64,000 nt of DNA, from contig NZ_AKIZ01000016.1 in NCBI RefSeq assembly GCF_000282595.1, positions 124,001-188,000 on the forward strand. The letters are read 5' to 3'. Source of the DNA: Phyllobacterium sp. YR531 (GTDB lineage Bacteria > Pseudomonadota > Alphaproteobacteria > Rhizobiales > Rhizobiaceae). The notes below the pieces were generated by a model that worked only from the letters and a program-made list of their open reading frames with translations, did not search any database and had not been told where the DNA came from. Positions 12,895 to 31,006 of this stretch are shown here, piece by piece (position 1 is the stretch's first letter; every line of letters begins with the position of its first letter). Position numbers and translations under genes: made by a program.

Positions 12895-14478
12895 ATGATG
12901 AGCGAACCTGCGATCGAGATAGACAATACTGGTTCATCGCGAGATCACGGCAGACGCGGAGGACGCTCCCGTCCACGCAGCTTTGAAAGTGGTGCTTTCG
13001 ACCAACCACCTTTTCGCCAACTCAAAATCCCTTTGACACCCACGAAAGTGGTTTCGGACGATGAGCTGGAGTCGATCCATAATGCGTCGCTAAAAGTTTT
13101 GCAGGAAATCGGCGTTGATGTTCTTCACGATGGCGCTCGGGATATCATGAAGCAGGCAGGCGCTGACGTACGCCCCGGTACAGCTCGCGTACACTTCGAC
13201 AAAGATATGATCCTCGAATATGTCGGGCATGCGCCATCCGAATTTACCCTCCATGCACGTAATCCAGCACACAATGTCCGCTTTGGTGGCAATAACCTGA
13301 TCTTTGCCCAAATGGGCTCCGCTCCGAATTGTTCTGATACAGACAATGGACGGAGATCGGGCAATCAGGCGGACTTCCGGAATTTCCTGAAACTGGCGCA
13401 GATGCACAATATCATCAATGCGACAGGTGGTTATCCGGTAGAGCCGATAGATATCCACCCTTCGGTGCGGCACCTGGAATGTATCCGAGATCTTGCAACG
13501 CTCACTGATAAACCATTTCACATCTACTCTCTCGGCAAAGAGCGTAATGAAGATGGCATAGAGATCGCGCGGATTGCCCGGGGGATTAGCCGCGAACAAC
13601 TACAGGAAGAAGCTTCCTGCTATACGATCATAAATACCAACTCACCGCTCAAGCTCGATATTCCGATGATGGAGGGCATTATCCAAATGTCGGGCAATGG
13701 TCAGATAGTCATTGTAACGCCATTCACACTTGCCGGCGCCATGGCACCAGTCACCATTGCAGGTGCATTAGTGCAGCAAAATGCTGAGGCATTGGCCGGC
13801 ATTTCATTCACCCAGATGGTCAAAAAGGGTGCACCAGTGGGCTACGGAGGCTTCACTTCCAATGTCGACATGAAGTCCGGTGCACCTGCTTTTGGTACCC
13901 CTGAGTATATGAAGGCCCAGATGGTTGGTGGACAATTGGCCCGTCGTTATGGCATTCCCTATCGCACTTCAAACGTTTGCGCGGCCAATACGGTCGACGC
14001 TCAGGCCGCGTATGAATCAGTCTTCTCCTTGTGGGGTGCCATTCAGGGCGGTGCAAATTTTATGCTGCACTCCGCCGGCTGGCTCGAAGGCGGACTGTGT
14101 TGTTCATACGAAAAGATGATCCTCGACTTCGATTTGTTGCAGATGGTTGCGGAGTTTCTGACACCTTTGGATCTTTCCGATGATGCACTGGGCATTGAGG
14201 CAATGCGCGACGTTGGTCCCGGGGGACATTTCTTTGGCACCGCCCACACGCAATCACGCTACAAAACTGCTTTTTACGCTCCGATAATTTCAGATTGGCG
14301 TAACTACGAAAGCTGGCAGGAAGCTGGCTCTCCCACAGCGATTGAGCGCGCAAATCGCATCTGGAAGGAACGGCTGGCAACTTATGTTAAACCCGCTATC
14401 GATCCAGCAATTGAAGAAGAAATCGATGCCTTCGTAGCCAGGCGTAAGTCTGAAGGCGGCGCGCCAACCGACTTCTGA
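12895..14478 (+). CDS. MttB-family corrinoid methyltransferase (copy 1)
   Basis: 527 residues of the trimethylamine methyltransferase superfamily (COG5598), the non-pyrrolysine branch: the frame has no internal TAG. Core family segments include IVTPFTLAGAMAPVTIAGAL, GAPVGYGGFTSNVDMKSGAP and MLHSAGWLEGGLCCSYEKM. Characterised relatives (MtgB, MtpB, MtcB) move a methyl group from glycine betaine, proline betaine or carnitine to a Co(I) corrinoid protein. An arginine-rich leader (residues 16-28, RDHGRRGGRSRPR) precedes the fold. It lies directly after the betaine importer and before an FAD-GcvT dehydrogenase, suggesting the imported amine is its substrate. The corrinoid partner is encoded at 23559. 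Confidence 0.88.
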   Translation: MMSEPAIEIDNTGSSRDHGRRGGRSRPRSFESGAFDQPPFRQLKIPLTPTKVVSDDELESIHNASLKVLQEIGVDVLHDGARDIMKQAGADVRPGTARVHFDKDMILEYVGHAPSEFTLHARNPAHNVRFGGNNLIFAQMGSAPNCSDTDNGRRSGNQADFRNFLKLAQMHNIINATGGYPVEPIDIHPSVRHLECIRDLATLTDKPFHIYSLGKERNEDGIEIARIARGISREQLQEEASCYTIINTNSPLKLDIPMMEGIIQMSGNGQIVIVTPFTLAGAMAPVTIAGALVQQNAEALAGISFTQMVKKGAPVGYGGFTSNVDMKSGAPAFGTPEYMKAQMVGGQLARRYGIPYRTSNVCAANTVDAQAAYESVFSLWGAIQGGANFMLHSAGWLEGGLCCSYEKMILDFDLLQMVAEFLTPLDLSDDALGIEAMRDVGPGGHFFGTAHTQSRYKTAFYAPIISDWRNYESWQEAGSPTAIERANRIWKERLATYVKPAIDPAIEEEIDAFVARRKSEGGAPTDF

Positions 14479-14536
14479 ACGTTGAATCAGTTTCTCAATA
14501 TATTGAATCACATCTGCATCTAAGAGGCTTAATTGC

Positions 14537-17113
14537 ATGAAATCGCACGTTAAAGCAGTTGTCATCGGCGGCGGTGTTGTCGGATGCTCCGTTCTGTATC
14601 ACCTTGCCCGAGCAGGCTGGACTGATGTCTTGTTGATTGAACGTTCCGAGCTGACCTCCGGCTCATCGTGGCATGCCGCTGGCGGTTTTCATACTCTGAA
14701 CGGTGATCCAAACGTCGCCAAACTGCAGGCCTATACAGTTAGTCTCTACAAGGAAATCGAAGAACTTTCTGGTCAGTCATGCGGCCTGCACCTTACTGGC
14801 GGCGTCATGGTGGCGGATAGTCCTGAACGTATGGATTTCTTGCGCCTCGCCCATGCGCGTGGGCGTTATCTCGGCATGGATACCGAGCTTATAACTCCCT
14901 CCGAGGCGAAAGCAATGTTCCCCCTGATGGATGAAACCAATTTCGTCGGCGCAATGTGGGATCCAGTTGAAGGCCATCTCGATCCATCTGGAACGACACA
15001 CGCCTATGCTAAAGCGGCCCGCAAGCTTGGAGCCGAAATATCACTGCGCAATCGCGTTGTTGAATTGACGCAGGAAGTGGATGGCACCTGGAATGTCATC
15101 ACTGAACAAGGCACGGTGAAAGCGGAGCACGTTGTTAATTGCGGTGGGCTTTGGGCTCGTGAAGTCGGACGGATGGTAGGACTGGAACTTCCGGTTCTTG
15201 CAATGGAGCACATGTATCTACTGACGGAAGATGTTCCGGAGGTAATGGAGTTCAATCAAAGCACAGGTCGTGAACTGATTGGTGTCATGGATTTCAAAGG
15301 TGAGATCTATACCAGGCAAGAACGAAATGGCATCTTGCTGGGTACTTATGAAAAGGCAGCCAAACCCTGGTCACCCGTCAATACGCCTTGGGATTTTGGT
15401 CACGAACTGCTCGCACCGGATATTGACCGTATCGCTCCATCCCTTGAAGTCGGTTTCAAACATTTTCCGGGTATCGAAAAAGCCGGAATTAAACAAATAA
15501 TAAACGGGCCTTTCACATTTGCACCCGACGGAAACCCGCTCGTTGGCCCAGTGCCCGGCCTGACAAATTACTGGACGGCTTGTGCTGTTATGGCTGGATT
15601 CAGCCAAGGCGGCGGCGTTGGCCTTGCACTGTCCAACTGGATGGTACACGGCGAACCGGGCTTTGACGTCTGGGGAATGGACGTTGCCCGCTTTGGTGAA
15701 TGGGCAACGCTGCGTTATACCAACGCAAAGGTACGTGAGAATTACTCTCGCCGCTTCTCCATCCGTTTTCCTAATGAAGAGTTGCCCGCCGCCCGCCCTC
15801 AGCAGACAACTCCTCTTTACGAAACAATGCTTTCGCAGAACGCCGTGATGGGAGATTCCTGGGGGCTGGAAACCCCTCTTTGGTTTGCACCGAAAGGTAA
15901 AGAAGCAAAGGATGTAGTTTCTTATCACCGCTCCAATGATTTCGAACATATCGGCAATGAGGTGCGGGCAACGCGTGAGCGTGTCGGCGTTACCGAAATT
16001 GCCAACTTCGCTAAATATGAGATTACGGGGACCAGCGCTGAAGCATTTTTATCGCACCTCATGACTAACACCATGCCAAAAATCGGGCGCTTGGTATTGA
16101 CACCCATGCTTAATCACGAAGGCAAGTTGATTGGTGACTTTACTATTGCCAAGGCCGCTCATGATCGGTTCGTTATTTGGGGTTCATCCGCAGCTCAGCG
16201 CTATCATATGCGCTGGTTCCAGAAGCAGCAGCCTAAGGATGGCTCGGTTTCTATTCATCGCTTCGACCAAACTTTGGTCGGCCTTTCAATCGCCGGGCCG
16301 CGAGCTCGGGACGTACTTGCCAAACTTGTCGACGAGGATGTTTCGAATACTGCATTCCGCTTCATGGATTATCGCGAAATGGCTGTGGGAGGAGCGCCCT
16401 GCAAGGTAAACCGCATTTCCTATACTGGCGACCTTGGTTACGAAATATGGATGGAGCCAGCTTATCAGCGCCTCGTGTACAGAGCGATTAAGGATGCTGG
16501 AGCAGAATATGGAATAGTTGACTTTGGCATGCGTGCACTGCTTTCCATGCGTCTCGAAAAGAATTTCCCGACATGGTATCGGGAGTTGCGCCCGATCTAC
16601 GGTCCATATGAAGGGTCTATGGATCGCTTCATCAAACTTGCCAAGAGTGATTTCATTGGTCGCGATGCTGCATCGAAAGAAAAAAACGATTTTGATTCTG
16701 GAATGAGCACAAAATTGCGGCGTGTGTCACTCATCGTTGATGTACCGCCAGGAGATGATGCAGCAGATGTAATGGGCGATGAGCCAATATGGGCAAAAGT
16801 TTTAAAGGATTACGGTGTTGTTCAGGCCAGCCATGGAGTTGGCGCACCTCGTTTCAACGAAAAGGGCGAAGTCGTTGCGAATACTGGTGATATCGGTGCC
16901 GTACAAGGCGAATGGCGTGTCGTGGGTTGGGTTACGTCCGGCGGTTATGCCCATTATGTTGAACGCTCTATGGCGCAGGGATATGTACCTGCAGAACTGG
17001 CAGACAATGAAAGCCACGGCCTGTTTGAGATAGAAATCCTTGGCCGCCGCCGTGCAGCCCGTATTAATATCGAGCCGCCATTCGACCCATCAGGCGAAAA
17101 GATGCGCGGGTAA
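14537..17113 (+). CDS. FAD-dependent oxidoreductase with GcvT domain (dimethylglycine/sarcosine dehydrogenase-like, copy 1)
   Basis: 858 residues. The N-terminal DAO domain begins with VVIGGGVVGCSVLYHLARAG and carries SGSSWHAAGG; the His at residue 46 is the likely covalent FAD site by analogy with dimethylglycine dehydrogenase. A central FAO domain is followed by GcvT-fold folate domains (about residues 430-850; SIAGPRARDVL, YTGDLGYEIW). The family oxidises N-methyl amines and passes formaldehyde to H4folate as 5,10-methylene-H4folate. It starts 58 bases after mttB copy 1, so it probably acts on the demethylation product of that enzyme. The exact amine is not determined. Confidence 0.87.
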   Translation: MKSHVKAVVIGGGVVGCSVLYHLARAGWTDVLLIERSELTSGSSWHAAGGFHTLNGDPNVAKLQAYTVSLYKEIEELSGQSCGLHLTGGVMVADSPERMDFLRLAHARGRYLGMDTELITPSEAKAMFPLMDETNFVGAMWDPVEGHLDPSGTTHAYAKAARKLGAEISLRNRVVELTQEVDGTWNVITEQGTVKAEHVVNCGGLWAREVGRMVGLELPVLAMEHMYLLTEDVPEVMEFNQSTGRELIGVMDFKGEIYTRQERNGILLGTYEKAAKPWSPVNTPWDFGHELLAPDIDRIAPSLEVGFKHFPGIEKAGIKQIINGPFTFAPDGNPLVGPVPGLTNYWTACAVMAGFSQGGGVGLALSNWMVHGEPGFDVWGMDVARFGEWATLRYTNAKVRENYSRRFSIRFPNEELPAARPQQTTPLYETMLSQNAVMGDSWGLETPLWFAPKGKEAKDVVSYHRSNDFEHIGNEVRATRERVGVTEIANFAKYEITGTSAEAFLSHLMTNTMPKIGRLVLTPMLNHEGKLIGDFTIAKAAHDRFVIWGSSAAQRYHMRWFQKQQPKDGSVSIHRFDQTLVGLSIAGPRARDVLAKLVDEDVSNTAFRFMDYREMAVGGAPCKVNRISYTGDLGYEIWMEPAYQRLVYRAIKDAGAEYGIVDFGMRALLSMRLEKNFPTWYRELRPIYGPYEGSMDRFIKLAKSDFIGRDAASKEKNDFDSGMSTKLRRVSLIVDVPPGDDAADVMGDEPIWAKVLKDYGVVQASHGVGAPRFNEKGEVVANTGDIGAVQGEWRVVGWVTSGGYAHYVERSMAQGYVPAELADNESHGLFEIEILGRRRAARINIEPPFDPSGEKMRG

Positions 17114-17857
17114 TTTCTGCGTTGAAATAAAGGGCAGGCCCTTGCGCCTGCCCGTCCAACCCACAACAATCAGAGCGCTGGCGAAACCATCATATCGCTG
17201 AGCCAGTTCCCATGATTTGCAGTCTATGGCCGCTACATCAGCACGCCCAGACGCGACCGCTTCAATTGAGTTCCGGTGACCGCCTGTTTCGTAATGACCA
17301 TTAAACAGTTCAAGCGTTTCACCACCAGCCTCAAGATCGCGTTTCAATGAAATATAACCTGACATTGAATCGTGACTGTTAAATGCAAGGCGTTTGCGCC
17401 TCATTAATTCGATAGGCAGTCGCGGATCACCATCACGTGGTGAAGCAATGCTGCTCCCCTCTCCGCGTCTCATTACGATTGGGCTTGAATAGAGTGGCCC
17501 ATCACCACCTTCAATGGCAGAGTAGTCATCCTGGCCAGCAACATACACATGTTGTTGTAGTCCGAGTTCCATCGGCCCCCAGCAAGTCTGCGCTAGTAAT
17601 AATGCGGGGTGTCTCCAAAGCACCGAAAGATCCAATTCTTCTGGTGGCAATGTTTCCGGATCAGGAGCGATAATGGTTCCTGTTGCATCCTTGATGCCAC
17701 CCGGAACAGCAGGGAGATCGGCATTACGCCTTGTAAGGTACGCTGGGGCATCGAAACCGCTGGAGCGTAGACTATCCCGCAATAAGAACCATTGTGCGTC
17801 AACTTCTGCGCGTCGTTCGGGCCAATCATACATTGGCAAAGCGGCTATAAGTGTCAT
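17090..17857 (-). CDS. PhnD-like phosphate/phosphonate-type binding protein without signal peptide
   Basis: 255 residues resembling the PhnD-type periplasmic binding fold (COG3221-like): LAFNSHDSMSGYISLKRDL, SGRADVAAIDCKSWELAQR. No signal peptide or lipobox is present (MTLIAALPMYDWPERRAEVD) and no ABC permease or ATPase is adjacent, so a cytoplasmic ligand-binding or sensory role is as likely as transport. It converges with the FAD-GcvT gene, overlapping it by 24 bases, and lies 9 bases downstream of the desaturase gene on the same strand. Fold assignment moderate, function unknown. Confidence 0.7.
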   Translation of the reverse strand: MTLIAALPMYDWPERRAEVDAQWFLLRDSLRSSGFDAPAYLTRRNADLPAVPGGIKDATGTIIAPDPETLPPEELDLSVLWRHPALLLAQTCWGPMELGLQQHVYVAGQDDYSAIEGGDGPLYSSPIVMRRGEGSSIASPRDGDPRLPIELMRRKRLAFNSHDSMSGYISLKRDLEAGGETLELFNGHYETGGHRNSIEAVASGRADVAAIDCKSWELAQRYDGFASALIVVGWTGRRKGLPFISTQKLPAHLFA

Positions 17858-17866
17858 GCGCTACAC

Positions 17867-18913
17867 TTAGTCTTTAGGCGGCTCGGCGGGAATAGGCAAA
17901 GTCGTGCCACCTTGCAGGCTGATGCCATGACGGCGGGGACGGAATGCCCGAGCAGTTGCCGGCTCGCGGCGCAATACAGGGTGGACCACTTCCTGCTTCT
18001 TATGAAATGCGTAAGCACGCAAGATTTCAAAGTAATTGCGGAAGACGTAACCGCCATTCATTCGCTGCCATTCTTCTCGCTGTTCGTCATAAATTTGTGG
18101 TAGATCATACCAAGGCGCCGTTGGACGTTTGTGGTGGACGAAATGCAGATTATTGTTGAGAAACAGCAGAGCAAGAGGCGACTTCTCTACAATGATGGTT
18201 CGCCCGTCCGGGCGTTCGGACCATTGGTGTTCGCAATAGGTGCGAATGGCAATGATCGACAATCCCAAATAGGCAGCGGTCAAGGCATAAATCCAGACAG
18301 GTATACCAAATGCGAACCACACTATAGCGAGCATTGGCGCTAAACCCAGCAGATGCAGAACCCAAGCATTGCGTGTCTTACGTTCCCCACCCTTGATCAA
18401 CTTGAATTCACTAATAAGAAATCCGACGACCATTAAAGCTGGGCCAATCACCACCCGCCCTATCAGCGTATTGTTCCAATTCAGCAAGATTTTCAAAGCC
18501 TTTGGCAGTTTCTCCCAATCCCCTAAAGCACGAAAATAGCTTTCAGGATCGTCATAAGGGTCAGTCAAGCGCTCATCAGCGTGGTGCTTGAGATGCAGAT
18601 GCTTATACCGCCGAAAAGGATAAAAAAGACCCAAAGGCAGTGAAACGAGTAACTCGTTGATCGTGCCATTGCGTGTCGGATGGCCATGCAGAGCTTCATG
18701 TTGCAACGAGGAATGAAAAGCGACAGCAACCGCCATCAATATAAGTGCCAGAACGGGCATTAGTGCATAAAGGTAAAGTCCGGCAAAAAACCAAAGGCCG
18801 TAACATAAAACCATTAAGCTTACGGTAGGCCATTCAACAGTACGGCGCCGTTTCTGATTTGCAGCTACAGATGATGCAGTTGAGGTATGTCTTTCTGATT
18901 CCATGTTTTTCAT
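17867..18913 (-). CDS. Membrane fatty-acid desaturase/hydroxylase superfamily protein
   Basis: About 348 residues from the ATG at 18913; a second ATG at 18904 is equally possible. The three His boxes of the di-iron membrane desaturase family are present: HEALHGH (residues ~72-78), HLHLKHH (~105-111) and HFVHH (~262-266), with several membrane helices between. The family includes acyl desaturases, carotenoid hydroxylases and alkane hydroxylases. Its place amid methylamine genes, divergent from an HTH regulator, leaves open an oxygen-dependent step on a quaternary amine or its precursor, but lipid desaturation is the default reading. Confidence 0.85.
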   Translation of the reverse strand: MKNMESERHTSTASSVAANQKRRRTVEWPTVSLMVLCYGLWFFAGLYLYALMPVLALILMAVAVAFHSSLQHEALHGHPTRNGTINELLVSLPLGLFYPFRRYKHLHLKHHADERLTDPYDDPESYFRALGDWEKLPKALKILLNWNNTLIGRVVIGPALMVVGFLISEFKLIKGGERKTRNAWVLHLLGLAPMLAIVWFAFGIPVWIYALTAAYLGLSIIAIRTYCEHQWSERPDGRTIIVEKSPLALLFLNNNLHFVHHKRPTAPWYDLPQIYDEQREEWQRMNGGYVFRNYFEILRAYAFHKKQEVVHPVLRREPATARAFRPRRHGISLQGGTTLPIPAEPPKD

Positions 18914-18919
18914 GGTCTC

Positions 18920-18990
18920 ACTGTCAGGAACTGTCAGCAATGATACAATTGCGCCTATGTGTTGATTTTGCGCACCAAATAATGCAATTG
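18920..18990. promoter_or_regulatory. Divergent control region with short repeats
   Basis: Between the desaturase and HTH genes lie a direct repeat ACTGTCAG at 18920-18927 and 18930-18937 (10-base period) and two CAATTG palindromes at 18946-18951 and 18985-18990 with similar flanks (TACAATTGCG, TGCAATTGTG). These are candidate sites for the adjacent HTH regulator. The role is inferred from position. Confidence 0.4.
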
Positions 18991-19007
18991 TGGTATATTG
19001 TAAACAA

Positions 19008-19859
19008 ATGGCGACCAACACCATGGATAAGCGCGACCTTTCACGTCTATTTCAAGCGCGAATAAAAAGCCTCCTTAATCGCAGCGGCGATAACCAGTCG
19101 GCTTTTGCCCATTCCGTTGGCATTGACAGATCCGCACTTTCACAACTTTTGTCGGGTCAGTCGACGCGTCTGCCGAGGGTAGAAACTTTACTTAATATTG
19201 CGGAGCGCCATTCCGTTTCGCTGGATTGGTTGCTTGGCCTCAGCCAAGATGAAGGAATTACCGGCGAACTGCGTCCAAGCATGGAGATAGAAGAGGGACC
19301 CGATAATTTCGAACGCACGCTTCTGGTGCGTTGGCATGCCGAAGCCACCGGCAGCAAAATACGGTATGTACCTGCACGTATCCCTGACCTGCTAAGAACA
19401 CCAGCCGTTATTGCCTACGAAACATCAATGGTCCATCGCGACCCTGCCGCCCAGATGAGCGAAACTGCTTTTCGCCTCGATTATAATCGACAGCCAGGAA
19501 CAGATATGGAAGTCTGCATGCCCATCCAGACCTTGCATGATTTTGCATCGGGATACGGCATTTGGAATGAACTGACCAAAGAGGTTCGAGCCGAACAGCT
19601 TGAACATATGTCTGGTTTGCTGAACGAGCTTTATCCTTCGTTCCGTCTATACCTATTTGATGGGCGAGAAAAATTCTCGGTGCCCTATACGGTTTTCGGA
19701 CCTTATCGGGTCGCCCTTTTCGTAGGCGGTATGTACTTGGTGCTTAATACCACGGAAGCCGTTTTGACCATGCAGCGGCATTTCGATGGTTTGATCCGCG
19801 TTGCCAAGATTAATGCCCATGAGATTGCCGATTATGTGTCGTCACTGGCAATCAAATAA
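19008..19859 (+). CDS. XRE-type helix-turn-helix transcriptional regulator
   Basis: About 284 residues from the ATG at 19008 (MATNTMDKRDL); an ATG at 19023 is an alternative. Residues ~10-75 form a Cro/C1-type HTH (NQSAFAHSVGIDRSALSQLL). The remaining ~200 residues are an uncharacterised, presumably ligand-binding domain (VPARIPDLLRTPAVIAYE, FSVPYTVFGPYRVALFVGG). It is divergent from the desaturase and upstream of bmt, so it likely controls one or both. No strong ribosome site was seen at either start. Confidence 0.82.
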   Translation: MATNTMDKRDLSRLFQARIKSLLNRSGDNQSAFAHSVGIDRSALSQLLSGQSTRLPRVETLLNIAERHSVSLDWLLGLSQDEGITGELRPSMEIEEGPDNFERTLLVRWHAEATGSKIRYVPARIPDLLRTPAVIAYETSMVHRDPAAQMSETAFRLDYNRQPGTDMEVCMPIQTLHDFASGYGIWNELTKEVRAEQLEHMSGLLNELYPSFRLYLFDGREKFSVPYTVFGPYRVALFVGGMYLVLNTTEAVLTMQRHFDGLIRVAKINAHEIADYVSSLAIK

Positions 19860-19948: not shown

Positions 19949-20962
19949 ATGACCATTGCAAATCCGCTCGCCGACCTGATTACTGAAAAAGGTATACTAC
20001 TGGCAGACGGAGCCACAGGTACGAATTTATTCGCCACAGGCCTCGAAGCGGGTGAAGCGCCGGAACTTTGGAACGAGGCACAGCCTGATAAGATCATTGC
20101 GTTGCATCAAGGATTTGTCGACGCCGGTGCCGATATCATACTTACAAACTCATTTGGTGGAACACGTCATCGCCTAAAGTTGCATCACGCGCAGGACCGC
20201 GTTTTTGACTTGAACAAGGCAGCCGCAGAATTGGCACGCAGTGTTGCTGATAAGGCTGGGCGAAAAGTTATTGTCGCGGGTTCTGTTGGCCCCACGGGCG
20301 AGCTGCTCGTTCCACTTGGTGCTCTTACTGAAGAAGAAGCAGTCACAGCCTTCACCGAGCAGCTGGAGGGATTAAAGGCTGGCGGAGTCGACGTGGCTTG
20401 GATTGAGACCATGTCTGCACCCGGTGAAATACGTGCAGCGGCAGAGGCAGCTGTTAAAGTCGGCTTGCCTTATGTTTACACCGGCTCTTTCGATACGGCC
20501 GGAAAAACCATGATGGGTCTGCCACCTAAAGAGATTCACGGTGTAGTTGATGGTTTAGCGGAGCGTCCGGTAGCGGTCGGTGCCAATTGTGGCGTTGGCG
20601 CGTCTGATATTTTGGCGTCACTGCTCGACATGACCGCAGCAGATCCATCTGCAACGATCATAGTAAAAGGAAATTGCGGTATTCCTGAATTTCGTGGCGC
20701 CGAGATTTTTTATTCAGGCACTCCTGAACTTATGTCGGATTATACACGTCTGGCGATCAACGGCGGCGCAAAAATCATTGGTGGCTGCTGCGGTACGTCA
20801 TTCGAACACTTAGCAGCAATGCGCAAGGCGCTGGACGGGCATAAGCAAGGCGCCCGCCCGACAGTCGAAGAGATCATCGAGATCATCGGGCCAATGCGCA
20901 ACAAGCTTGCCGCCCATGCAGATGACATGCCGAAACGTGAGCGGCGTGGCAGACGCGGTTAA
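19949..20962 (+). CDS. bmt: Betaine-homocysteine S-methyltransferase
   Basis: 337 residues of the homocysteine/selenocysteine S-methyltransferase family. The zinc-binding Cys are C214 (GANCGVG) and C280/C281 (GGCCGT). DGATGTNL near the N-terminus is typical. Rhizobial Bmt moves a methyl group from glycine betaine to homocysteine, giving methionine and dimethylglycine. Given the neighbouring corrinoid genes, a methyl donor other than free betaine is conceivable. The last nine residues (KRERRGRRG) form a basic tail seen in other proteins of this cluster. It converges with the ferredoxin-like gene, 3 bases apart. Confidence 0.88.
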   Translation: MTIANPLADLITEKGILLADGATGTNLFATGLEAGEAPELWNEAQPDKIIALHQGFVDAGADIILTNSFGGTRHRLKLHHAQDRVFDLNKAAAELARSVADKAGRKVIVAGSVGPTGELLVPLGALTEEEAVTAFTEQLEGLKAGGVDVAWIETMSAPGEIRAAAEAAVKVGLPYVYTGSFDTAGKTMMGLPPKEIHGVVDGLAERPVAVGANCGVGASDILASLLDMTAADPSATIIVKGNCGIPEFRGAEIFYSGTPELMSDYTRLAINGGAKIIGGCCGTSFEHLAAMRKALDGHKQGARPTVEEIIEIIGPMRNKLAAHADDMPKRERRGRRG

Positions 20963-21729: not shown

Positions 21730-23316
21730 TCAGGTGAAGGCGTCGGGCATTGACGCCTTCTTCTTGGCAATGAACTCTTTCAAGGATTCATCAATTGATG
21801 GATCGAGATATGGCGCTTCATATGTTTCCAACCAGCGACGAGCAAGCTCGTTAGCGCGTTGATCGGCACGCTTCTCGCCCTCAGCGAGCCATTGCTCGTA
21901 GGAATTATTATCCGCGATGTTCGACCGATAAAAGGCCGTCTGAAAGTTCGCTTGGGTATGGTCACACCCAAGATAGTGGCTTCCGGGTCCGACCTGCCGG
22001 ATTGCATCCATGGCCTGACCATTTTCAGAAAGATCGACGCCTTCAGCGATTTTCTGAGCCATCCCCAGCTGATCGATGTCCATCATGAACTTTTCATAGG
22101 AAGAAACCAGTCCACCTTCCAGCCAGCCTGCTGCGTGCAGTACAAAATTTGTACCTGCCAAGAGTGTTGAGTTCAAAGTATTAGCACTTTCGTATGCCGC
22201 TTGCGCGTCAGAGACTTTCGAAGCACAAAGTGAGCCACCTGTACGGAATGGCAAGCCGAGCCGCCGTGCAAGTTGTGCTGCACCGTAAGACACAAGCGAC
22301 GGTTCTGGCGTACCGAACGTCGGTGCTCCAGATTGCATCGAGATTGATGAGGCAAATGTTCCGAAAATTACTGGCGCACCGGGACGGATAAGCTGTGTAA
22401 ACGAAGCACCCGCCAAAACCTCCGCCAAGACCTGAGTCAATGTCCCAGCAACAGTTACTGGGCTCATTGCGCCGGCAAGAATGAACGGCGTGACAATACA
22501 GGCCTGATTGTTACGAGCGTAGACTTTTAGTGCGCCCAACATGGTCTCATCGAAGACCATAGGCGAGTTTGCGTTGATAAGGCTGGTCAGCACGGTGTTC
22601 TGGTCAAGATAATCTTCACCGAACACCAATTTGCACATTGATATCGTATCTTCCGCTCTCTCCGGGGCGGTGACGGAACCCATGAACGGTTTGTCAGAAT
22701 ACTTGATATGAGCATAGATCATATCAAGATGACGCTTATTTACCGGCACATCCACAGGCTCGCAAACCGTACCACCTGAATGATGGATGGATGGAGCCAT
22801 ATAGGCGAGTTTCACAAAATTCTGGAAATCGGCGATTGTCGCATATCGGCGATTGCCATCAAGATCGCGAACGAAAGGGGGACCGTATACAGGCGCAAAA
22901 ACTGTCGCTTTACCACCAATTTGCACTGATCGTTCCGGATTACGCGCATTCTGCGTATAGATTGAAGGCGCCGTTTTCAGAAGCGATCGTGGCAAGCCTT
23001 TGGGGAAATGGACACGTTCACCTTTGATATCAGCGCCAGCTTCTCTCCAAAGCGCTAAGGCTTCTGCATCGTCGCGAAACTCAATACCGATCTCTTCCAG
23101 CACCGTGTCGGCGTTGGCTTCGATGATCGCCAATCCTTCTTCATCCAGCACTTCATAGGTATTGATCTTGCGGGTAATATAGGTCAGCGATTTACCAGGG
23201 CCGCCGCCGGATCGCGCTGCACGACGCGCAGCGGCACCCGCACCAGCGCCCCGTCCGCGACGGCCACTGCCTGTTTCCGTTTCAGCGGAAGCATCAACTG
23301 ACGTATCCTCACTCAT
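21730..23316 (-). CDS. MttB-family corrinoid methyltransferase (copy 2)
   Basis: 528 residues, same superfamily as the copy at 12895 and likewise without an in-frame TAG. Core segments: IVTPFILAGAMSPVTVAGTL, GAPVIFGTFASSISMQSGAP, LHAAGWLEGGLVSSYEKF. The two copies are clearly diverged, so they probably act on different amines. The first ~43 residues are a low-complexity Gly/Ala/Arg leader (residues 19-35 rich in R) before the fold begins at SLTYITRK. GGAG lies 8 bases before the ATG. It is transcribed away from the corrinoid protein gene at 23559, with a small ORF between. Confidence 0.88.
   Translation of the reverse strand: MSEDTSVDASAETETGSGRRGRGAGAGAAARRAARSGGGPGKSLTYITRKINTYEVLDEEGLAIIEANADTVLEEIGIEFRDDAEALALWREAGADIKGERVHFPKGLPRSLLKTAPSIYTQNARNPERSVQIGGKATVFAPVYGPPFVRDLDGNRRYATIADFQNFVKLAYMAPSIHHSGGTVCEPVDVPVNKRHLDMIYAHIKYSDKPFMGSVTAPERAEDTISMCKLVFGEDYLDQNTVLTSLINANSPMVFDETMLGALKVYARNNQACIVTPFILAGAMSPVTVAGTLTQVLAEVLAGASFTQLIRPGAPVIFGTFASSISMQSGAPTFGTPEPSLVSYGAAQLARRLGLPFRTGGSLCASKVSDAQAAYESANTLNSTLLAGTNFVLHAAGWLEGGLVSSYEKFMMDIDQLGMAQKIAEGVDLSENGQAMDAIRQVGPGSHYLGCDHTQANFQTAFYRSNIADNNSYEQWLAEGEKRADQRANELARRWLETYEAPYLDPSIDESLKEFIAKKKASMPDAFT
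21736..21760 (-). terminator. Hairpin spanning the mttB copy 2 stop region
   Basis: GAAGGCGTC pairs with GACGCCTTC across a 7-base loop, inside the last codons of the gene. It has no U-run immediately after it; it may stabilise the transcript end or be incidental coding-strand structure. Confidence 0.3.
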
Positions 23317-23558: not shown

Positions 23559-24257
23559 ATGGCCGACGATGAAATCATTCTTTCGGAGCTTTCAGACGAC
23601 GAACTTGTCGAGCAAATGCACGACGATCTTTACGATGGCCTAAAGGAAGAAATCGAAGAAGGCACCAATATTCTGCTTGAGCGCGGATGGGTACCATATC
23701 GAGTGCTCACCGAGGCACTTGTGGAGGGAATGCGTATTGTCGGCGAGGATTTCCGCGACGGTATTCTATTCGTACCTGAAGTGCTGCTATCAGCCAATGC
23801 GATGAAAGCGGGAATGTTCATCCTGCGCCCCCTTCTTGCAGCTACAGGCGCACCCAAACAGGGCAAGCTAGTTATTGGTACCGTCAAGGGGGACATTCAC
23901 GACATTGGTAAGAACCTTGTCGGCATGATGATGGAAGGTGCAGGGTTTGATGTCATTGACCTGGGCATCAACAATCCCGTCGAGAATTATCTGGCGGCAA
24001 TTGAAGAACACAAGCCGGATATCCTTGGAATGTCTGCCCTTCTAACCACGACAATGCCTTACATGAAAGTCGTTATCGATACGATGAAGGAAAAAGGTAT
24101 TCGCGAAGACTACGTTGTTTTGGTCGGCGGCGCTCCTCTTAATGAAGAATTTGGCAAGGCAGTTGGCGCTGACGCCTATTGTCGCGATGCGGCGGTAGCT
24201 GTTGAAACCGCCAAATCATTCATGAAACGCAAGCACAATCAAATGTCTGGAGCATGA
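23559..24257 (+). CDS. Corrinoid (methyl-carrier) protein, MtgC/MttC-like
   Basis: 232 residues. An N-terminal helical cap (residues ~12-90, with FVPEVLLSANAMKAGM) precedes a Rossmann-like B12-binding domain with DIHDIG at 112-117, where H114 is the expected lower axial ligand, then GMSALLTTTMP and VLVGGAPLNEEF. It accepts a methyl group from MttB-type enzymes on Co(I) and donates it to the folate methyltransferase encoded at 27878. The first ~35 residues are strikingly acidic (about 15 Asp/Glu). It is the only such carrier in the window and so probably serves both MttB copies. Confidence 0.92.
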   Translation: MADDEIILSELSDDELVEQMHDDLYDGLKEEIEEGTNILLERGWVPYRVLTEALVEGMRIVGEDFRDGILFVPEVLLSANAMKAGMFILRPLLAATGAPKQGKLVIGTVKGDIHDIGKNLVGMMMEGAGFDVIDLGINNPVENYLAAIEEHKPDILGMSALLTTTMPYMKVVIDTMKEKGIREDYVVLVGGAPLNEEFGKAVGADAYCRDAAVAVETAKSFMKRKHNQMSGA

Positions 24258-24474: not shown

Positions 24475-24542
24475 GGAAATGTCTCCCGTTCTGATAAATT
24501 AAATCCAACGTTCGCATAACGCGATGGAGCAACATCGGTTCC

Positions 24543-25166
24543 ATGAATGTTAGCCGAAACCAGAAAATTCGACCTGAGACTGTTAGGGTCATTGCTTGCG
24601 GCATGATTGCGCGCGAGATCTTGGCTATACGTCAACAATTTGACTTGGAGCATTTGCAACTCACCTGTCTCCCGGCAGAGTATCATCATTACCCCGACAA
24701 AATTGCGCCGTCGGTGGAACAGGCGATAAAAAAGGCCAAGGCTGAAGGTGTAAAGAATATTTTTATCGGCTATGCGGATTGCGGAACAGGCGGGCTTCTG
24801 GACCGTGTTTGCGAAAAGCATGGTGTCGAGCGCATTGCTGGTCCTCATTGCTTTTCTTTCTATGCGGGCAATGATCTTTTTGCGGCGCAATGGGATGAGG
24901 ACATGACGTCATTTTTCATGACAGATTTTCTGGCGCGACATTTCGATGCCTTCATGGTTAGACCTTTAGGCTTGGATCGTCATCCTGAGCTGCGCGAAAT
25001 GTATTTCGGCAACTATAGGAAGATGATCTACATGGCGCAGACGGATGATCCGGAATTGAGCATCAAGGCCAAAAAGGCTGCTGAGTTTTTGGGACTGGCT
25101 TATGAGCGGCGATTGACCGGATATGGTGACCTCGTACCCGCCCTCAGGGCCGCAGCAAATCACTAA
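24543..25166 (+). CDS. DUF1638 domain protein
   Basis: 207 residues that look like the DUF1638 family: VRVIACGMIAREIL at the start, CLPAEYHHYPDKIAP, FIGYADCGTGGLLDRV and a conserved His/Cys-containing GPHCFSFYAG. Conserved Cys and His suggest metal or corrinoid contact, but no activity is established. The family often sits near methylamine methyltransferase genes in archaea and bacteria, and here it is close to the corrinoid protein, so a role in corrinoid methyl transfer is likely. No clear ribosome site was found before the ATG. Confidence 0.8.
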   Translation: MNVSRNQKIRPETVRVIACGMIAREILAIRQQFDLEHLQLTCLPAEYHHYPDKIAPSVEQAIKKAKAEGVKNIFIGYADCGTGGLLDRVCEKHGVERIAGPHCFSFYAGNDLFAAQWDEDMTSFFMTDFLARHFDAFMVRPLGLDRHPELREMYFGNYRKMIYMAQTDDPELSIKAKKAAEFLGLAYERRLTGYGDLVPALRAAANH

Positions 25167-25240
25167 ACACATCCTTGCCATAATATGGGCGGGTTCAAAT
25201 CATTTCTGCTGTAGATGATTCCAACAGGAAATTTCTCTGT

Positions 25241-25816: not shown

Positions 25817-25868
25817 ATCCCTTTCGTCATTGCAATGTCACCAAGCTCACGCCATATGCGTCGAAAGC

Positions 25869-26558
25869 ATGGGCAAAGACGAAACGATGACTGCAACTGA
25901 TGGAAATGAAAAACTGATCGCTGACGATGCAGTAGACGGGGTTCAAGCTGATAACGATCCGCGTCCCCTCTCGCAGGTATTCAAGGATCTCTCCCTTTCG
26001 GCAAAGGCCCCCGTCTCTTTCACGGAGCTTGAAGAGGCATTTACTGATCGCAGTTTTGCTGCACTGCTGACGTTCTTTGCAATTTTGAATTTGCTGCCAT
26101 TACCGCCAGGCACGGGTATCGTAACTGGGATACCGCTTGTCCTTGTATCGGTCCAAATGGTCATGGGACGAGAATCCGTCTGGCTGCCTTCTTTTTTACG
26201 CTCCAAATCAATTTCGCCTGAGCGCTTCAAACAGGTTTCAGACAAAGTTGTGCCTTGGTTACAGTGGCTTGAACGCTTTATAAAACCTCGTAATTGGCCG
26301 TTTGGGCGCAAACAAGGCGATCGCTGGCTTGGTGCTTTCACCACGATTTTGGGCATGTCAGTCGTTCTACCAATGCCTCTTTCAAACTGGCTGCCGGCAC
26401 TTGCAACTGCTATTGTCGGCATAGCCTTGTGCGAACGCGATGGGAGATTGTTGTTTGCCGGTCTCACGATAGGCATAGTCTCCATAGGTATAGTTGCCGG
26501 GTTTGCCTTCGTTGCTGCCAGTGTAATTACTTATGCTGCAAGTTTTTGGCCGTTCTGA
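25869..26558 (+). CDS. exoD: ExoD-family membrane protein
   Basis: About 229 residues; the start is uncertain between ATGs at 25869 and 25887, as neither has a strong ribosome site. The ExoD signature is visible: SFTELEEAFTDRSFAALLTFFAILNLLPLPPG, then hydrophobic stretches GTGIVTGIPLVLVSVQMVMG, GMSVVLPMPLSNWLPALATA and a C-terminal pair of helices. ExoD affects exopolysaccharide production and alkali tolerance in Sinorhizobium; the mechanism is unknown. It appears unrelated to its C1 neighbours. Confidence 0.83.
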   Translation: MGKDETMTATDGNEKLIADDAVDGVQADNDPRPLSQVFKDLSLSAKAPVSFTELEEAFTDRSFAALLTFFAILNLLPLPPGTGIVTGIPLVLVSVQMVMGRESVWLPSFLRSKSISPERFKQVSDKVVPWLQWLERFIKPRNWPFGRKQGDRWLGAFTTILGMSVVLPMPLSNWLPALATAIVGIALCERDGRLLFAGLTIGIVSIGIVAGFAFVAASVITYAASFWPF

Positions 26559-26675
26559 TAGCTCGTCGCAAAAACGCCACCCCGATACGTCGCATTTGAG
26601 TGCCCGGGCGTCGTGAGATAGCTAGCTTTCCCCCGTATTTTCCGGCAAAACCGTCCTTGTCGGAGGATAGATTGC

Positions 26676-26978
26676 ATGGCTGATCTCATTGTCGTTTATT
26701 GGCGGGACATACCTGCTCAGGTAACCGTCAAAAAAGGACGCCAGGCAGCTAAACGCGAGCTCCCCCTTCGCTTTACTGAAGCTATAGATATGTGCGCGAT
26801 GCGCATAGGTGCCAAAGATTCAGACGCCTATCTTGCGGAATGGCGCCGCGGCACGCCAGTGCCTGTGAGTGATGATCTTGAGACCGAGGCTGATGCAGCC
26901 CTCGCCCGCATTGACAATGATTACGACCGGGAACGCCTTGTGGCGCTTGTAAAGGCAGGTGGACATGACAATTCATGA
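26676..26978 (+). CDS. Conserved small protein of the 'virulence factor' family (PF13769-like)
   Basis: 100 residues, preceded by GGAGG. Features are VVYWRDIPAQVTVKKGRQAAKREL, then AIDMCAMRIGAKDSDAYLAEWRR. The family name is historical and no biochemical role is established. It overlaps the start of the folate reductase-like gene by 14 bases and so is likely made together with it. This coupling points to a role in the C1/corrinoid module rather than virulence. Confidence 0.78.
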   Translation: MADLIVVYWRDIPAQVTVKKGRQAAKRELPLRFTEAIDMCAMRIGAKDSDAYLAEWRRGTPVPVSDDLETEADAALARIDNDYDRERLVALVKAGGHDNS

Positions 26979-27867
26979 GTTGAGAGCGAAGCCAATGACG
27001 AAAATCGCAGCATCAATTGAAGTCGCAGCGCGCCAGGCTATCGAATCCCAAGACCTTCCAGGACTTTTTCCGGCTGGTACAAGGGTCTATATTACCGATA
27101 TGGGCAGCGACAGCGTTGATACTCTGACATCCGCAGCAAAGCGTATTCATGATCTTGGCTATAAGCCTATTCCACATTTTGCTTCTCGCCGCCTCTCGAC
27201 CAAGTCCGCGTTGGAAACCCGTATCCGCCGCGCTTCAGAGGAAGCGGGTGTTACGGATGTGCTTGTCATCGGCGGTGGCCTTGAGCGTCAGGCTGGTGAA
27301 TTCTCCTCCACAATGCAGGTGCTCGAAACCGGTTTTTTTGACAAATACGGCATTACTGAAATGGGTGTTGCCGGTCACCCGGAGGGCAGCCCAGAATTTT
27401 CTGAAGCGGTTGCTCTTGAAGCCCTCCGCCTTAAGAAGAACTTCGGCGAACGTACGGGTGCCCACCTGCGCGTCGTGACACAGTTTGGTTTTGATGCCGA
27501 CCGCTTCATTCGATACTCAGAATCGCTACGCGAGCACGGAGTAGATTTGCCAGTACATCTTGGAGTTGCCGGACCAGCAAAAATCACGACGTTGATCAAA
27601 TATGCTGCAATGTGTGGTGTTGGCAATTCCATCAGCTTTCTGAAAAAGAATGCTCTTTCTCTGACTGCGCTCGCCACAAGTCATTCCCCTGAAGGGGTCG
27701 TGGGCCCGATCGAGCAACATGCAATCGCTAACCCCTCATCTGCGATCAAGCAGATACACGTCTTTCCATTTGGCGGCTTGAAGAAATCTGCAGAATGGCT
27801 AACGGATCGCGGTTCATGGGATTTGAATACAAGACATTTCCAAGCTGCAAACTCGGCCGCGAATTAA
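26965..27867 (+). CDS. Methylenetetrahydrofolate reductase-like protein
   Basis: About 300 residues. The ATG at 26965 follows AGGTGG closely; a GTG at 26959 is an alternative. It has the MTHFR TIM-barrel pattern: TRVYITDMGS, HFASRRLSTKSAL, VLVIGGGLERQAGEF, GVAGHPEGSPE and FPFGGLKKSAEWL. It is clearly diverged from housekeeping MetF. In a pathway that produces methyl-H4folate from a methylated amine, it would run toward methylene-H4folate. It lies 10 bases before the folate:corrinoid methyltransferase gene, which fits that use. Confidence 0.85.
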   Translation: MTIHELRAKPMTKIAASIEVAARQAIESQDLPGLFPAGTRVYITDMGSDSVDTLTSAAKRIHDLGYKPIPHFASRRLSTKSALETRIRRASEEAGVTDVLVIGGGLERQAGEFSSTMQVLETGFFDKYGITEMGVAGHPEGSPEFSEAVALEALRLKKNFGERTGAHLRVVTQFGFDADRFIRYSESLREHGVDLPVHLGVAGPAKITTLIKYAAMCGVGNSISFLKKNALSLTALATSHSPEGVVGPIEQHAIANPSSAIKQIHVFPFGGLKKSAEWLTDRGSWDLNTRHFQAANSAAN

Positions 27868-27877
27868 GGATTCTTGA

Positions 27878-28837
27878 ATGACCCGTACGATCGTCGCCTC
27901 GGCGACCAGAGAGATCATCATCGGTTTTGATCAGCCCTTCTGTGTGATTGGTGAGCGGATAAATCCAACCGGGCGCAAGAAACTTGCTGCTGAAATGGTG
28001 GCCGGGAACTTCGACACGGTTATCAAGGATGCCTTGGAACAGGTTGCTGCTGGAGCAACCATGTTGGACGTAAATGCTGGCGTCACAGCAGTTGATCCAA
28101 ATGCAACTGAACCGGATCTTCTGGTTAAGACACTAGAAATCGTGCAGAATCTTGTTGATGTACCTTTGTCGATTGACAGTTCGGTAACGGCGGCCATCGA
28201 AGCTGCCTTGCGTGTTGCCAAGGGGCGTCCTCTGGTGAACTCTGTCACTGGCGAAGAAGAAAAGCTTGAGGCAATTCTGCCTCTCATCAAGAAGTATAAT
28301 GTCCCTGTCGTAGCTATTTCGAACGATGAGACCGGTATTTCAATGGATCCAGACGTGCGGTTCGCCGTCGCCAAGAAGATCGTCCAGCGGGCTGCCGATT
28401 TTGGCATTCCGGCTCATGATATTGTCGTTGATCCGCTAGTCATGCCCATTGGGGCTCTCGGAGATGCCGGGCGTCAAGTCTTTGCCCTACTTCGCCGCCT
28501 GCGCGAAGAGTTGAAGGTCAATACGACCTGCGGCCTATCAAACATCTCTTTCGGTCTGCCGCATCGTCATGGCATTAATGCTGGATTTATTCCAATGGTT
28601 ATCGGTGCGGGCATGACGTCAGCAATCATGAACCCTTGCCGTCCGCAGGAAATGGAAGCTGTTCACGCCGCCAATGTTTTGAATGGCACGGATGCCAATT
28701 GTACCTATTGGATCAAGAAATACCGCGACCACCAACCGGCGGCGGGCGGCGCTGCACCGGCAGTTTCAGTTCCAGCAGATTCCGGGGGTGGTCGTCGACG
28801 TGGTGGACGTGATGCGCGACGCGGGGTCGCAAGCTGA
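27878..28837 (+). CDS. Methyltetrahydrofolate:corrinoid methyltransferase (MtgA/AcsE-like)
   Basis: 319 residues of the pterin-binding (DHPS-like) family. CVIGERINPTGRKK (from residue 22), MLDVNAG (62-68), SIDSS and GLSNISFGLP are the folate and catalytic segments. In characterised systems (MtgA, MtqA) the enzyme moves the methyl group from the corrinoid protein to H4folate. After the catalytic domain comes a Pro/Ala linker and a Gly/Arg-rich tail at residues ~303-316 (GGGRRRGGRDARRG), absent from typical members. It sits between the folate reductase-like and activator genes. Confidence 0.9.
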   Translation: MTRTIVASATREIIIGFDQPFCVIGERINPTGRKKLAAEMVAGNFDTVIKDALEQVAAGATMLDVNAGVTAVDPNATEPDLLVKTLEIVQNLVDVPLSIDSSVTAAIEAALRVAKGRPLVNSVTGEEEKLEAILPLIKKYNVPVVAISNDETGISMDPDVRFAVAKKIVQRAADFGIPAHDIVVDPLVMPIGALGDAGRQVFALLRRLREELKVNTTCGLSNISFGLPHRHGINAGFIPMVIGAGMTSAIMNPCRPQEMEAVHAANVLNGTDANCTYWIKKYRDHQPAAGGAAPAVSVPADSGGGRRRGGRDARRGVAS

Positions 28838-28878
28838 ACGGTTTGCACCTGATATCAAGCCTAACATAGAAAGGCGAA

Positions 28879-28892
28879 GGGCGGAAACGCCC
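28879..28892 (+). promoter_or_regulatory. Intercistronic GAAA-tetraloop hairpin
   Basis: GGGCG-GAAA-CGCCC, a compact stable hairpin about 30 bases before the GTG start of the activator gene. It may influence mRNA stability or ribosome access; no regulator is implied. Confidence 0.4.
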
Positions 28893-28921
28893 CTCACCTC
28901 GAAAGTTTTGGAGCACCGATC

Positions 28922-31006
28922 GTGAATGCACCCGTCAAAACGCCTGAAGCCTCAGCAAAAGAAGCGCTTGTGCTTTTTATGCCTTCTGGCAAGCGCGGCC
29001 GTTTTGCTGTTGGCACACCAGTATTGGAAGCTGCACGCACGCTCGGCGTTTACGTCGAAAGTGTTTGCGGCGGGCGTGGTATTTGTGGGCGTTGCCAAGT
29101 TGAAGTGCAGGAAGGTCGTTTCGCCAAACACGGCATAACTTCTTCAAATGATCATATTTCAGAGTTTGGACCTAAAGAGCAGCGTTACGCCGAAAAGCGC
29201 GACCTGAAGCAAGGCAGACGCCTGTCTTGCTCCGCAACAATCCTTGGCGATCTTGTAGTTGATGTTCCGCAGGATGTGCAGGTCAATGCTCAAGTCGTAC
29301 GCAAGGATGTTGATACACGCGTTATCGAACGCAACCCTGCAATCCGCATGTGCTATGTCGAGGTTGAAGAGCCTGACATGCACAAGCCGCTTGGCGATCT
29401 GGACCGGCTGAAAATAGCGCTCGAAAATGAGTGGGGATTTCATAACATTGACGTGGATACTCATCTTCTCGCAGACGTTCAGAAAATATTGCGCAAGGGT
29501 GAGTGGGGCGTCACGGCTGCTATTCATCACGATGAAGAGACATCACGCCCAACCATGATCGGCCTTTGGCCGGGGTTGAAGAACGAAGCATATGGTATTG
29601 CGTGCGATATCGGGTCCACGACAATAGCGATGCATCTGTCATCGCTATTGTCTGTTCGCACGATTGCTTCTGCAGGTACTTCCAATCCACAGATCAGGTT
29701 CGGCGAAGACCTTATGAGCCGCGTCTCTTATGTCATGATGAACCCCGATGGACGTGAGGGCATGACAAGCGCCGTGCGCGGAGCCATCAACGAATTAATT
29801 GACAGAGTCTGCGCTGAAGGCGGCATAGCCAGGGAAGATATTCTCGATGCAGTTTTCGTGGGCAATCCCATTATGCATCACCTTTTTCTGGGTATTGACC
29901 CTACGGAGCTCGGTGGAGCACCATTCGCGCTTGCTGTTTCCGGTGCAGTTCATCTCAAATCGTCCGACATTGGTCTTCCCATGAACCCGGGAACACGCGT
30001 TTATATGCTCCCGTGTATTGCTGGGCACGTTGGTGCCGATGCTGCCGCAGCAACACTTGCGGAAGGCCCTCATCGTCAAGATGAGATGATGCTGCTTGTC
30101 GATGTTGGCACAAACGCGGAAATCGTTCTTGGCAATCGCCATCGCACCGTCGCAGCGTCGTCTCCCACCGGCCCCGCATTTGAAGGTGCGGAAATTTCTG
30201 GCGGTCAGCGGGCAGCGCCGGGCGCAATTGAACGTGTTCGCATAGATCCCATCACTCTGGAGCCTCGTTTTCGCGTTATAGGTACAGAACAATGGTCCGA
30301 CGAACCCGGCTTTGGCGAAGCTGTGCAAATCAGCGGCATTACTGGCATATGCGGCTCAGCCATTATCGAGGTGGTCGCCGAAATGTACCTGTCCGGAATA
30401 ATCTCCGAGGATGGTGTGATTGATGGAAGTCTTGCTGCCCGATCCTCACGCGTCATGGCTACAGGCCGAACCTTTTCCTATCTGTTGCGTGAAGGCGCGC
30501 CGACGATAACCATTACTCAGACAGATGTGCGCGCTATTCAATTAGCGAAAGCGGCGCTCTACGCTGGCGTCAAGCTGCTCATGGACAAGCTCGGAATAGA
30601 TCATGTCGACCAAATCCGTTTTGCTGGAGCCTTTGGGTCATTTATTGATCCCAAATATGCGATGGTTCTTGGTCTTATCCCCGACTGCGATCTTGATAAG
30701 GTTCTAGCGGTTGGCAATGCGGCAGGCACCGGCGCTCGAATGGCTTTGCTCAATCGCAACTACCGTCGCGAAATAGAAGATACGGTTACGCGCATTGAAA
30801 AGATCGAAACCGCGCTCGAACCAAAGTTTCAGGAGCACTTCGTTTACGCAATGGCCATGCCAAACAAGGTCGACCCCTTCCCCAAACTTTCAAAAGTTGT
30901 AACTCTGCCACAACGAAAAAATGTTAGCGAAGACGGCATTGTGGGTGACGCCACACCACGCCGCCGCTCTCGCGAAGACCGTGCCGCGCGTAGAAGTCGC
31001 GATTAG
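28922..31006 (+). CDS. Corrinoid reductive activator (RACo/RamQ-like, 2Fe-2S plus ASKHA domain)
   Basis: 694 residues from a GTG at 28922, with GGAG about 9 bases upstream. An N-terminal [2Fe-2S] ferredoxin domain has Cys at 49, 55, 58 and 103 (CGGRGICGRCQ...LSC). The C-terminal part is the DUF4445/ASKHA ATPase of RACo proteins: YGIACDIGSTTIAMHL, MLLVDVGTNAEIVLGN, FAGAFGSFIDPKYAM. These proteins use ATP to reduce inactive Co(II) corrinoid back to Co(I). The last 17 residues (TPRRRSREDRAARRSRD) form a basic tail beyond the fold. Its presence implies the corrinoid protein is truly redox-active and needs repair. Confidence 0.92.
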   Translation: MNAPVKTPEASAKEALVLFMPSGKRGRFAVGTPVLEAARTLGVYVESVCGGRGICGRCQVEVQEGRFAKHGITSSNDHISEFGPKEQRYAEKRDLKQGRRLSCSATILGDLVVDVPQDVQVNAQVVRKDVDTRVIERNPAIRMCYVEVEEPDMHKPLGDLDRLKIALENEWGFHNIDVDTHLLADVQKILRKGEWGVTAAIHHDEETSRPTMIGLWPGLKNEAYGIACDIGSTTIAMHLSSLLSVRTIASAGTSNPQIRFGEDLMSRVSYVMMNPDGREGMTSAVRGAINELIDRVCAEGGIAREDILDAVFVGNPIMHHLFLGIDPTELGGAPFALAVSGAVHLKSSDIGLPMNPGTRVYMLPCIAGHVGADAAAATLAEGPHRQDEMMLLVDVGTNAEIVLGNRHRTVAASSPTGPAFEGAEISGGQRAAPGAIERVRIDPITLEPRFRVIGTEQWSDEPGFGEAVQISGITGICGSAIIEVVAEMYLSGIISEDGVIDGSLAARSSRVMATGRTFSYLLREGAPTITITQTDVRAIQLAKAALYAGVKLLMDKLGIDHVDQIRFAGAFGSFIDPKYAMVLGLIPDCDLDKVLAVGNAAGTGARMALLNRNYRREIEDTVTRIEKIETALEPKFQEHFVYAMAMPNKVDPFPKLSKVVTLPQRKNVSEDGIVGDATPRRRSREDRAARRSRD

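Follow-up and report, generated by a model that had tools for sequence, protein, structure and literature searches.

Roseobacters possess a split methionine synthase, MtgBCDE, that also serves as a glycine betaine methyltransferase (PMC12478193; split MetH in Phaeobacter, PMC5764234) and whose corrinoid carrier, MtgC, is common to betaine demethylation and methionine synthesis (PMC12478193). The system has been reported as a major ocean route of betaine demethylation, and Ruegeria pomeroyi and Phaeobacter inhibens depend on it to make methionine (PMC12478193, PMC5764234); Phaeobacter and Ruegeria mutants either require methionine or cannot grow on betaine (PMC5764234, PMC12478193), and a DUF1638 protein is likewise required for methionine synthesis in Phaeobacter (PMC5764234). 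None of the portions of these papers covered here deals with how the separate proteins come together. Fused MetH/MTR has linkers, some of them flexible, between its homocysteine, folate, cobalamin and activation domains (PMC13376404). Here we describe an MtgBCDE module in a 64,000-nucleotide stretch of the Phyllobacterium sp. YR531 genome (contig NZ_AKIZ01000016.1, positions 124,001 to 188,000; hereafter the window), in which each MtgC visitor carries an arginine (Arg)-rich tag at one terminus, and propose that these tags may dock the visitors on an acidic arm of the carrier.

Added elements that help a corrinoid carrier meet its methyltransferase have precedents: an extra N-terminal domain of MtaC sits in a groove between MtaB subunits, and MttB uses a dimerisation loop to meet its carrier, MttC being without the extra N-terminal domain (PMC9842639). 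These are dedicated pairs, and an Arg-rich tag is not described for them in the covered portions of that report. In polyketide synthases and nonribosomal peptide synthetases, short N- or C-terminal docking domains hold a split multienzyme together, some of them as disordered linear motifs with salt bridges (PMC9113145); their contacts are ordered and pairwise, whereas the arrangement proposed for MtgC would comprise one hub arm, many partners and a composition-coded tag. The main texts of PMC12478193 and PMC5764234, supplements lying outside the scope, do not mention tails, none were found in the covered portions of PMC8604678 and PMC13376404 or by text search of PMC13222342, and no mention of such tails was found in the full-text literature, a scope that leaves aside subscription papers, bioRxiv and supplements.

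Judged by its protein families, the module is the known MtgBCDE system, a split methionine synthase and betaine demethylase with its RACo/RamA activator and DUF1638 protein, an identity not recognised when the first-pass annotation described a C1 module. Pfam and NCBIfam matches in the window comprise two MtgB proteins (MttB copies 1 and 2), MtgC, MtgD, MtgE, a RACo/RamA-like activator, DUF1638, an MTHFR-like protein and a PF13769 protein. The PF02574, PF00809 and PF02607+PF02310 pieces are separate proteins, accompanied by the PF06253 methyltransferases, and both the PF14574 activator and DUF1638 are present, so that the same families recur as in the roseobacters. A fused MetH (1754 bits) is also encoded in the genome besides the split module. 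MtgC shows 97% identity to its Phyllobacterium counterpart, which places the genome near that genus.

Five Arg-rich segments had been claimed outside the folds of MttB1, MttB2, MtgE (then called BHMT), MtgD (the folate methyltransferase) and RACo, and all five are found at the residues given, with 5-8 Arg each. Solved relatives end or begin short of them: the alignment with D. hafniense MtgB (9yce) starts at query residue 53, chain residue 5, that with RACo (3zyy) reaches query residue 649 with 9 chain residues remaining, and that with MeTr (1f6y) stops at query residue 283. Short terminal segments outside the fold, on the partners of a split system, are the arrangement expected of docking peptides. 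Among 442 own-genome open reading frames (ORFs) of at least 100 amino acids, taken from 464 kb, the most Arg-rich C-terminal 20 residues are those of RACo (8 Arg) and then MtgD (6), and MtgE has 5, with at least 5 present in 10 of the 442; the N-terminal measure is less discriminating (at least 6 in 11 of 442, including MttB1 and MttB2). Genome G168, represented by 759 ORFs to which its module locus L056 was added deliberately, has five ORFs with at least 6 Arg in the last 20 residues, two of these being RACo and MtgD. Together, the two sets rule out the tails as a general proteome trait; greedy longest ORFs of loci rich in guanine and cytosine (GC) are rich in antisense ORFs and were excluded as a background rate.

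MtgC at ≥74% identity occurs in 35 of 190 Alphaproteobacteria genomes sampled (the gene is partial in G178), together with MtgD in 32, RACo in 34, MtgE-type matches in 30 (two of them fused MetH) and PF06253 proteins in all 35. Termini were scored in 30 MtgD, 33 RACo, 28 MtgE and 32 best MtgB loci (123 proteins), with the fused-MetH rows L261 and L262 excluded. At least 4 Arg in 20 residues outside the core were present in 30, 32, 26 and 32 of these, respectively (120/123), and at least 5 at one terminus in 30/30, 32/33, 25/28 and 32/32 (119/123). In 30 MtgD, 30 RACo, 26 MtgE and 32 MtgB proteins (118/123), no 20-residue window of the core matched the tail in Arg content, whereas the tails of the G148 and G163 RACo proteins are equal to or below their best core window; only 0.08% of 48,734 core windows hold at least 6 Arg. 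Module orthologues lacking tails, an outcome that the first-pass annotation had named as fatal to its idea, are thus not what the relatives show, and their distribution supports a terminal tag that is linked to the module and common to non-homologous enzymes, N-terminal in some and C-terminal in others. The MtgD of G154 (L202) has a C-terminal stretch that diverges past query residue 253, with an Arg-rich tail still at its end.

For MtgB, whose starts are uncurated, N-termini were scored at 64 of 65 loci (L365 gave no alignment), comprising 30 best-hit and 34 further loci, with 35 further loci read from a larger set of PF06253 matches. At least 4 Arg in 20 residues, in an open frame upstream of the core, were present in 63/64, and in 59/64 when counted from the most proximal start only, a rule under which L291, L374, L355 and L364 join L363 in having fewer than 4. 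The tailed set includes paralogues at 22-30% identity. Tails are also present in S. meliloti and Paracoccus, in a short form in Terrarubrum, and outside the class in the betaproteobacterium Azoarcus sp. KH32C and in G263 (same phylum, other class); Gemmatirosa (L438), with no readable RACo ORF, was left out of the comparison.

Composition rather than a fixed sequence characterises the tails. Their windows are about one third Arg, plus Gly, Ala, Ser and Pro, with <1% aromatic residues, a make-up from which disorder is expected, and they are probably disordered. MttB tails are enriched in GG..[AS]RR (22/64 vs 0.6 expected) and RRGGR.[ASG]R is present in 120/120 best-listed MtgD homologues; class-wide, the counts are 2/30 for MtgD (GGR.[AS]RR), 0/30 for RACo and 1/28 for MtgE. 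A single motif for all tailed families was rejected, and family motifs are not carried over class-wide. Arg is preferred over Lys at 937:166 in the scored tail stretches, compared with 3191:1768 in cores, and at 220:74 compared with 731:569 in the loci read from nine genomes below 53% GC; even G062 (33% GC) keeps 6-7 Arg per 20 residues. GC drift as the source of the tails was rejected, since Arg is retained over Lys at 33% GC. That the tails are functionless, lineage-specific low-complexity extensions kept by GC bias appears hardly credible: the C-terminal tails are indeed unalignable class-wide and variable in length, but retention in four families and 119 of 123 proteins, also at 33-52% GC, a tail exceeding every core window in 118 of 123, and operon neighbours without C-terminal tails all speak against it.

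Those neighbours bear on specificity. The C-termini of MtgC (65 ORFs), DUF1638 (56), the MTHFR-like protein (11) and the PF13769 'virulence factor' protein (20) do not exceed 4 Arg over their final 20 residues; at the N-terminus, where starts are uncurated, single ORFs of these proteins have up to 6. Of 11 homologues of the partners drawn from other corrinoid systems, 10 have fewer than 5 Arg in 20, the exception being the L067 MeTr at 5: beside carriers without the arm, L066, L067 and L068 have RACo proteins with 0-3 Arg in 20 and MeTr proteins with 3, 5 and 1, respectively, Acetoanaerobium has 0 in both RACo and MeTr, and the Vescimonas RACo has 1. An MttB-like protein, L363, has no tail and adjoins its own carrier, which is without the acidic arm. 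These L066, L067 and L068 loci represent another corrinoid system of MtgC-negative Alphaproteobacteria, with an armless carrier, RACo and MeTr, and a URO-D protein in L067 and L068.

Among 80 of 155 MtgC-negative genomes that were searched, PF06253 proteins were found in 5, RACo in 7, MtgE above the cut-off in none and MtgD above the cut-off in 2, where 'MtgC-negative' is provisional because the initial genome search can miss homologues, as it did the fused MetH of the own genome. Five such genomes (G007, G064, G071, G077 and G176), all drafts of 120-810 contigs, have tailed MttB or RACo, with 14/19 scorable MttB N-termini tailed by a strict start rule, and the prediction that tails occur only where the whole module is present therefore holds only in part. 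In these five genomes either MtgC may have been missed or the tails may be independent of it. The latter would suit a targeting of the tails to another polyanion (RNA, ribosome, nucleoid, polyphosphate or inner membrane), by which the pathway would be co-localised without tail-MtgC contact. The Arg/Gly/Ala-rich, aromatic-poor composition, with Arg over Lys, is typical of nucleic-acid or membrane contacts and points the same way. MtgC itself is untailed, however, so that the hub would not be co-localised, and covariation with MtgC charge, described below, would be left unexplained; overall, we regard such targeting as rather unlikely, if the foremost competitor.

On the carrier side, when 36 MtgC sequences are aligned with 8 further carriers from their family, an N-terminal arm is seen only in MtgC, with a median net charge before the domain of -7 compared with -1 in the others. 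An arm motif is matched by 117/117 MtgC entries (111 distinct; 80 from close Rhizobiales) and by 0/8 other carriers, a count to be read with the circularity that the motif was derived from the same sequences; Terrarubrum MtgC differs from it at one position. The arm sequence is conserved and includes hydrophobic positions that do not vary. In the window its net charge of -10 over the first 23 residues is the minimum among the 442 own-genome ORFs, and -7 is reached by 2/442 of these and by 1/690 G168 ORFs. Acidity of the whole carrier, by comparison, was set aside as a weak discriminator (median -19 for MtgC, -16 for the others).

From this combination we propose that the tails dock the partners on the acidic arm of MtgC, in place of the covalent linkers of MetH, a reading that we hold at slightly less than an even chance. 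A single carrier must be visited by MtgB paralogues bringing methyl groups from their donors, by MtgD for folate, by MtgE for homocysteine and by the RACo activator, and the tags, as docking peptides of a weak, fuzzy electrostatic kind, would attach to the arm and to the acidic surface of MtgC, raising the local concentration of visitors while permitting quick exchange. Tags and arm would in this way do non-covalently what inter-domain linkers do in the fused enzyme. Because the client cores in the window have net charges of -5 to -15, without tails the like charges of these cores and of MtgC would face each other. Binding, exchange and kinetic benefit are what we infer from tags, their conservation and distribution, the arm and the charge covariation. 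Of the roles listed in the first-pass annotation, binding to the acidic corrinoid protein thereby gains indirect support from an MtgC-specific arm and its covariation with the tails, the binding itself being a prediction from sequence.

Across 33 genomes, arm charge varies inversely with mean tail charge (Spearman -0.60, p 2.5e-4), and the relation persists as a partial correlation given GC and the charges of client cores and MtgC body (-0.47, p 0.006). With a tree built from the RACo, MtgD and MttB cores, independent contrasts gave r -0.50 (p 0.003), 23 of 32 contrasts being of opposite and 6 of the same sign, and -0.44 (p 0.012) without G084; single families were significant for RACo (p 0.03) and MtgB (p 0.006). 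An assembly of MtgB, MtgD, MtgE and RACo, in which tails bind the acidic cores of other visitors and MtgC diffuses between them, would be consistent with the negative client cores in the window; tail charge covaries with the MtgC arm and body, though, and not significantly with client-core charge (Spearman -0.29, p 0.10), which makes this assembly very unlikely. Multivalent complex coacervation of tails and arm into a condensate or loose metabolon, instead of one-to-one docking, draws on opposite-charge segments on many partners, on PF06253 matches that number as many as 15 in a genome, fragments included, and on the MttB hexamer (PMC9842639), which would give six tails per particle. An arm conserved in sequence, with its fixed hydrophobic positions, looks more like a specific site, and we consider coacervation unlikely by a good measure.

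Several observations weigh against docking of the tails on the arm. The covariation was tested post hoc (an initial run over 32 genomes gave -0.65), and neither MtgD (p 0.23) nor MtgE (p 0.10) reaches significance by itself. The MtgC body without the arm also correlates with tail charge (-0.53, p 0.0015), and arm charge correlates with client-core charge (+0.60), so that specificity for the arm is uncertain; the other carriers of the family, moreover, are acidic overall too. RACo and MtgE of G084 and MtgE of G061 are untailed, and MtgE of G088 has only 4 Arg. What the tails have in common is composition, not a single motif, and they extend beyond the expected setting, as in the five genomes without detected MtgC and in two tailed PF06253 proteins (L065:1274-3609 and L070:8028-10310) that adjoin armless carriers, though in MtgC-positive genomes. 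Among the controls, the L067 MeTr ends in a short basic stretch, and RACo and MtrH of the haloarchaeon Halomicrococcus have 4 Arg in 20 each. Finally, S. meliloti, Paracoccus and Azoarcus have a PF12225 MTHFR C-terminal-domain protein that is strongly basic (+13 to +18), with an Arg-containing N-terminus; this protein is not known to visit MtgC and may be another bearer of the tag.

The features of the module are collected in Table 1. The PF13769 gene accompanies the module, and the RACo of Terrarubrum flagellatum carries its product as an N-terminal fusion (760 aa; L436:9701-11983); owing to this fusion to the activator, the 'virulence factor' label seems to mislead, and the protein probably acts near carrier reactivation. 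Near the module, a PF12974 phosphonate-binding-type protein (17090-17857) adjoins a PF00487 fatty-acid-desaturase family protein (17867-19024), and in Terrarubrum mtgC is immediately preceded by genes for a PhnD/SsuA protein and a desaturase (L436:6495-8245); the pair may serve methylated-amine use. On a haloarchaeal plasmid (L432:9161-13867), genes for a corrinoid protein, RACo, DUF1638 and MtrH are consecutive, and DUF1638 thus accompanies the RACo activator in an archaeon too.

Table 1. Proteins, tails and carrier arm of the module, with window positions; entries bearing an L number give positions in that locus.
Feature	Position	Strand	Basis
MttB copy 1, MtgB-type methyl donor:corrinoid methyltransferase	12895..14478	+	ORF; PF06253 669 bits
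MttB1 N-terminal Arg-rich tail, residues 16-28	12940..12978	+	6 Arg in translation; tailed relatives of copy 1
MtgE ('BHMT'), homocysteine-binding piece of split methionine synthase	19949..20962	+	PF02574, NF005718 554 bits; name from PMC12478193, PMC5764234
MtgE C-terminal Arg-rich tail, residues 329-337	20933..20959	+	5 Arg; ≥5 Arg in 20 in 25/28 relatives
MttB copy 2, MtgB-type	21730..23316	-	PF06253 784 bits; close relative of solved S. meliloti chain 4yyc
MttB2 N-terminal Arg-rich tail, residues 19-35	23212..23262	-	6 Arg; ≥6 Arg in 20 in 32/32 best-hit relatives
MtgC, corrinoid (B12) carrier, untailed, net charge -18	23559..24257	+	PF02607+PF02310
MtgC acidic N-terminal arm, residues 1-25, proposed tail receptor	23559..23633	+	motif in 117/117 MtgC entries, 0/8 other carriers
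DUF1638 protein, untailed	24543..25166	+	PF07796
PF13769 'virulence factor' small protein, untailed	26676..26978	+	PF13769; fused to RACo in Terrarubrum
MTHFR-like protein, untailed	26959..27867	+	PF02219; C-terminal Arg counts of 11 relatives
MtgD, methyl-tetrahydrofolate:corrinoid methyltransferase (folate methyltransferase)	27878..28837	+	PF00809, NF005719
MtgD C-terminal Arg-rich tail, residues 303-316	28784..28825	+	6 Arg; RRGGR..R invariant in 26 aligned close homologues
RACo/RamA-like reductive activator	28922..31006	+	PF14574, PF17651, PF17650, Fer2
RACo C-terminal Arg-rich tail, residues 678-694	30953..31003	+	8 Arg; ≥5 Arg in 20 in 32/33 relatives
Basic PF12225 proteins next to module	L431:7535-8008; L435:6878-7465; L437:7289-7870		

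Taken a step further, and tentatively, the tails may represent a charge-coded form of docking, in which a disordered Arg-rich tag, gained N- or C-terminally by four enzyme families, would address the arm of one B12 carrier, replacing the linkers of MetH, allowing one carrier to serve many methyltransferases and tracing MtgC clients yet to be discovered. If true, the tag would provide a rule for finding further carrier clients from sequence, and a central metabolic enzyme would be assembled in an unusual, composition-coded manner. A shared terminal tag offers a testable answer to how the separate pieces of a split methionine synthase find one carrier.

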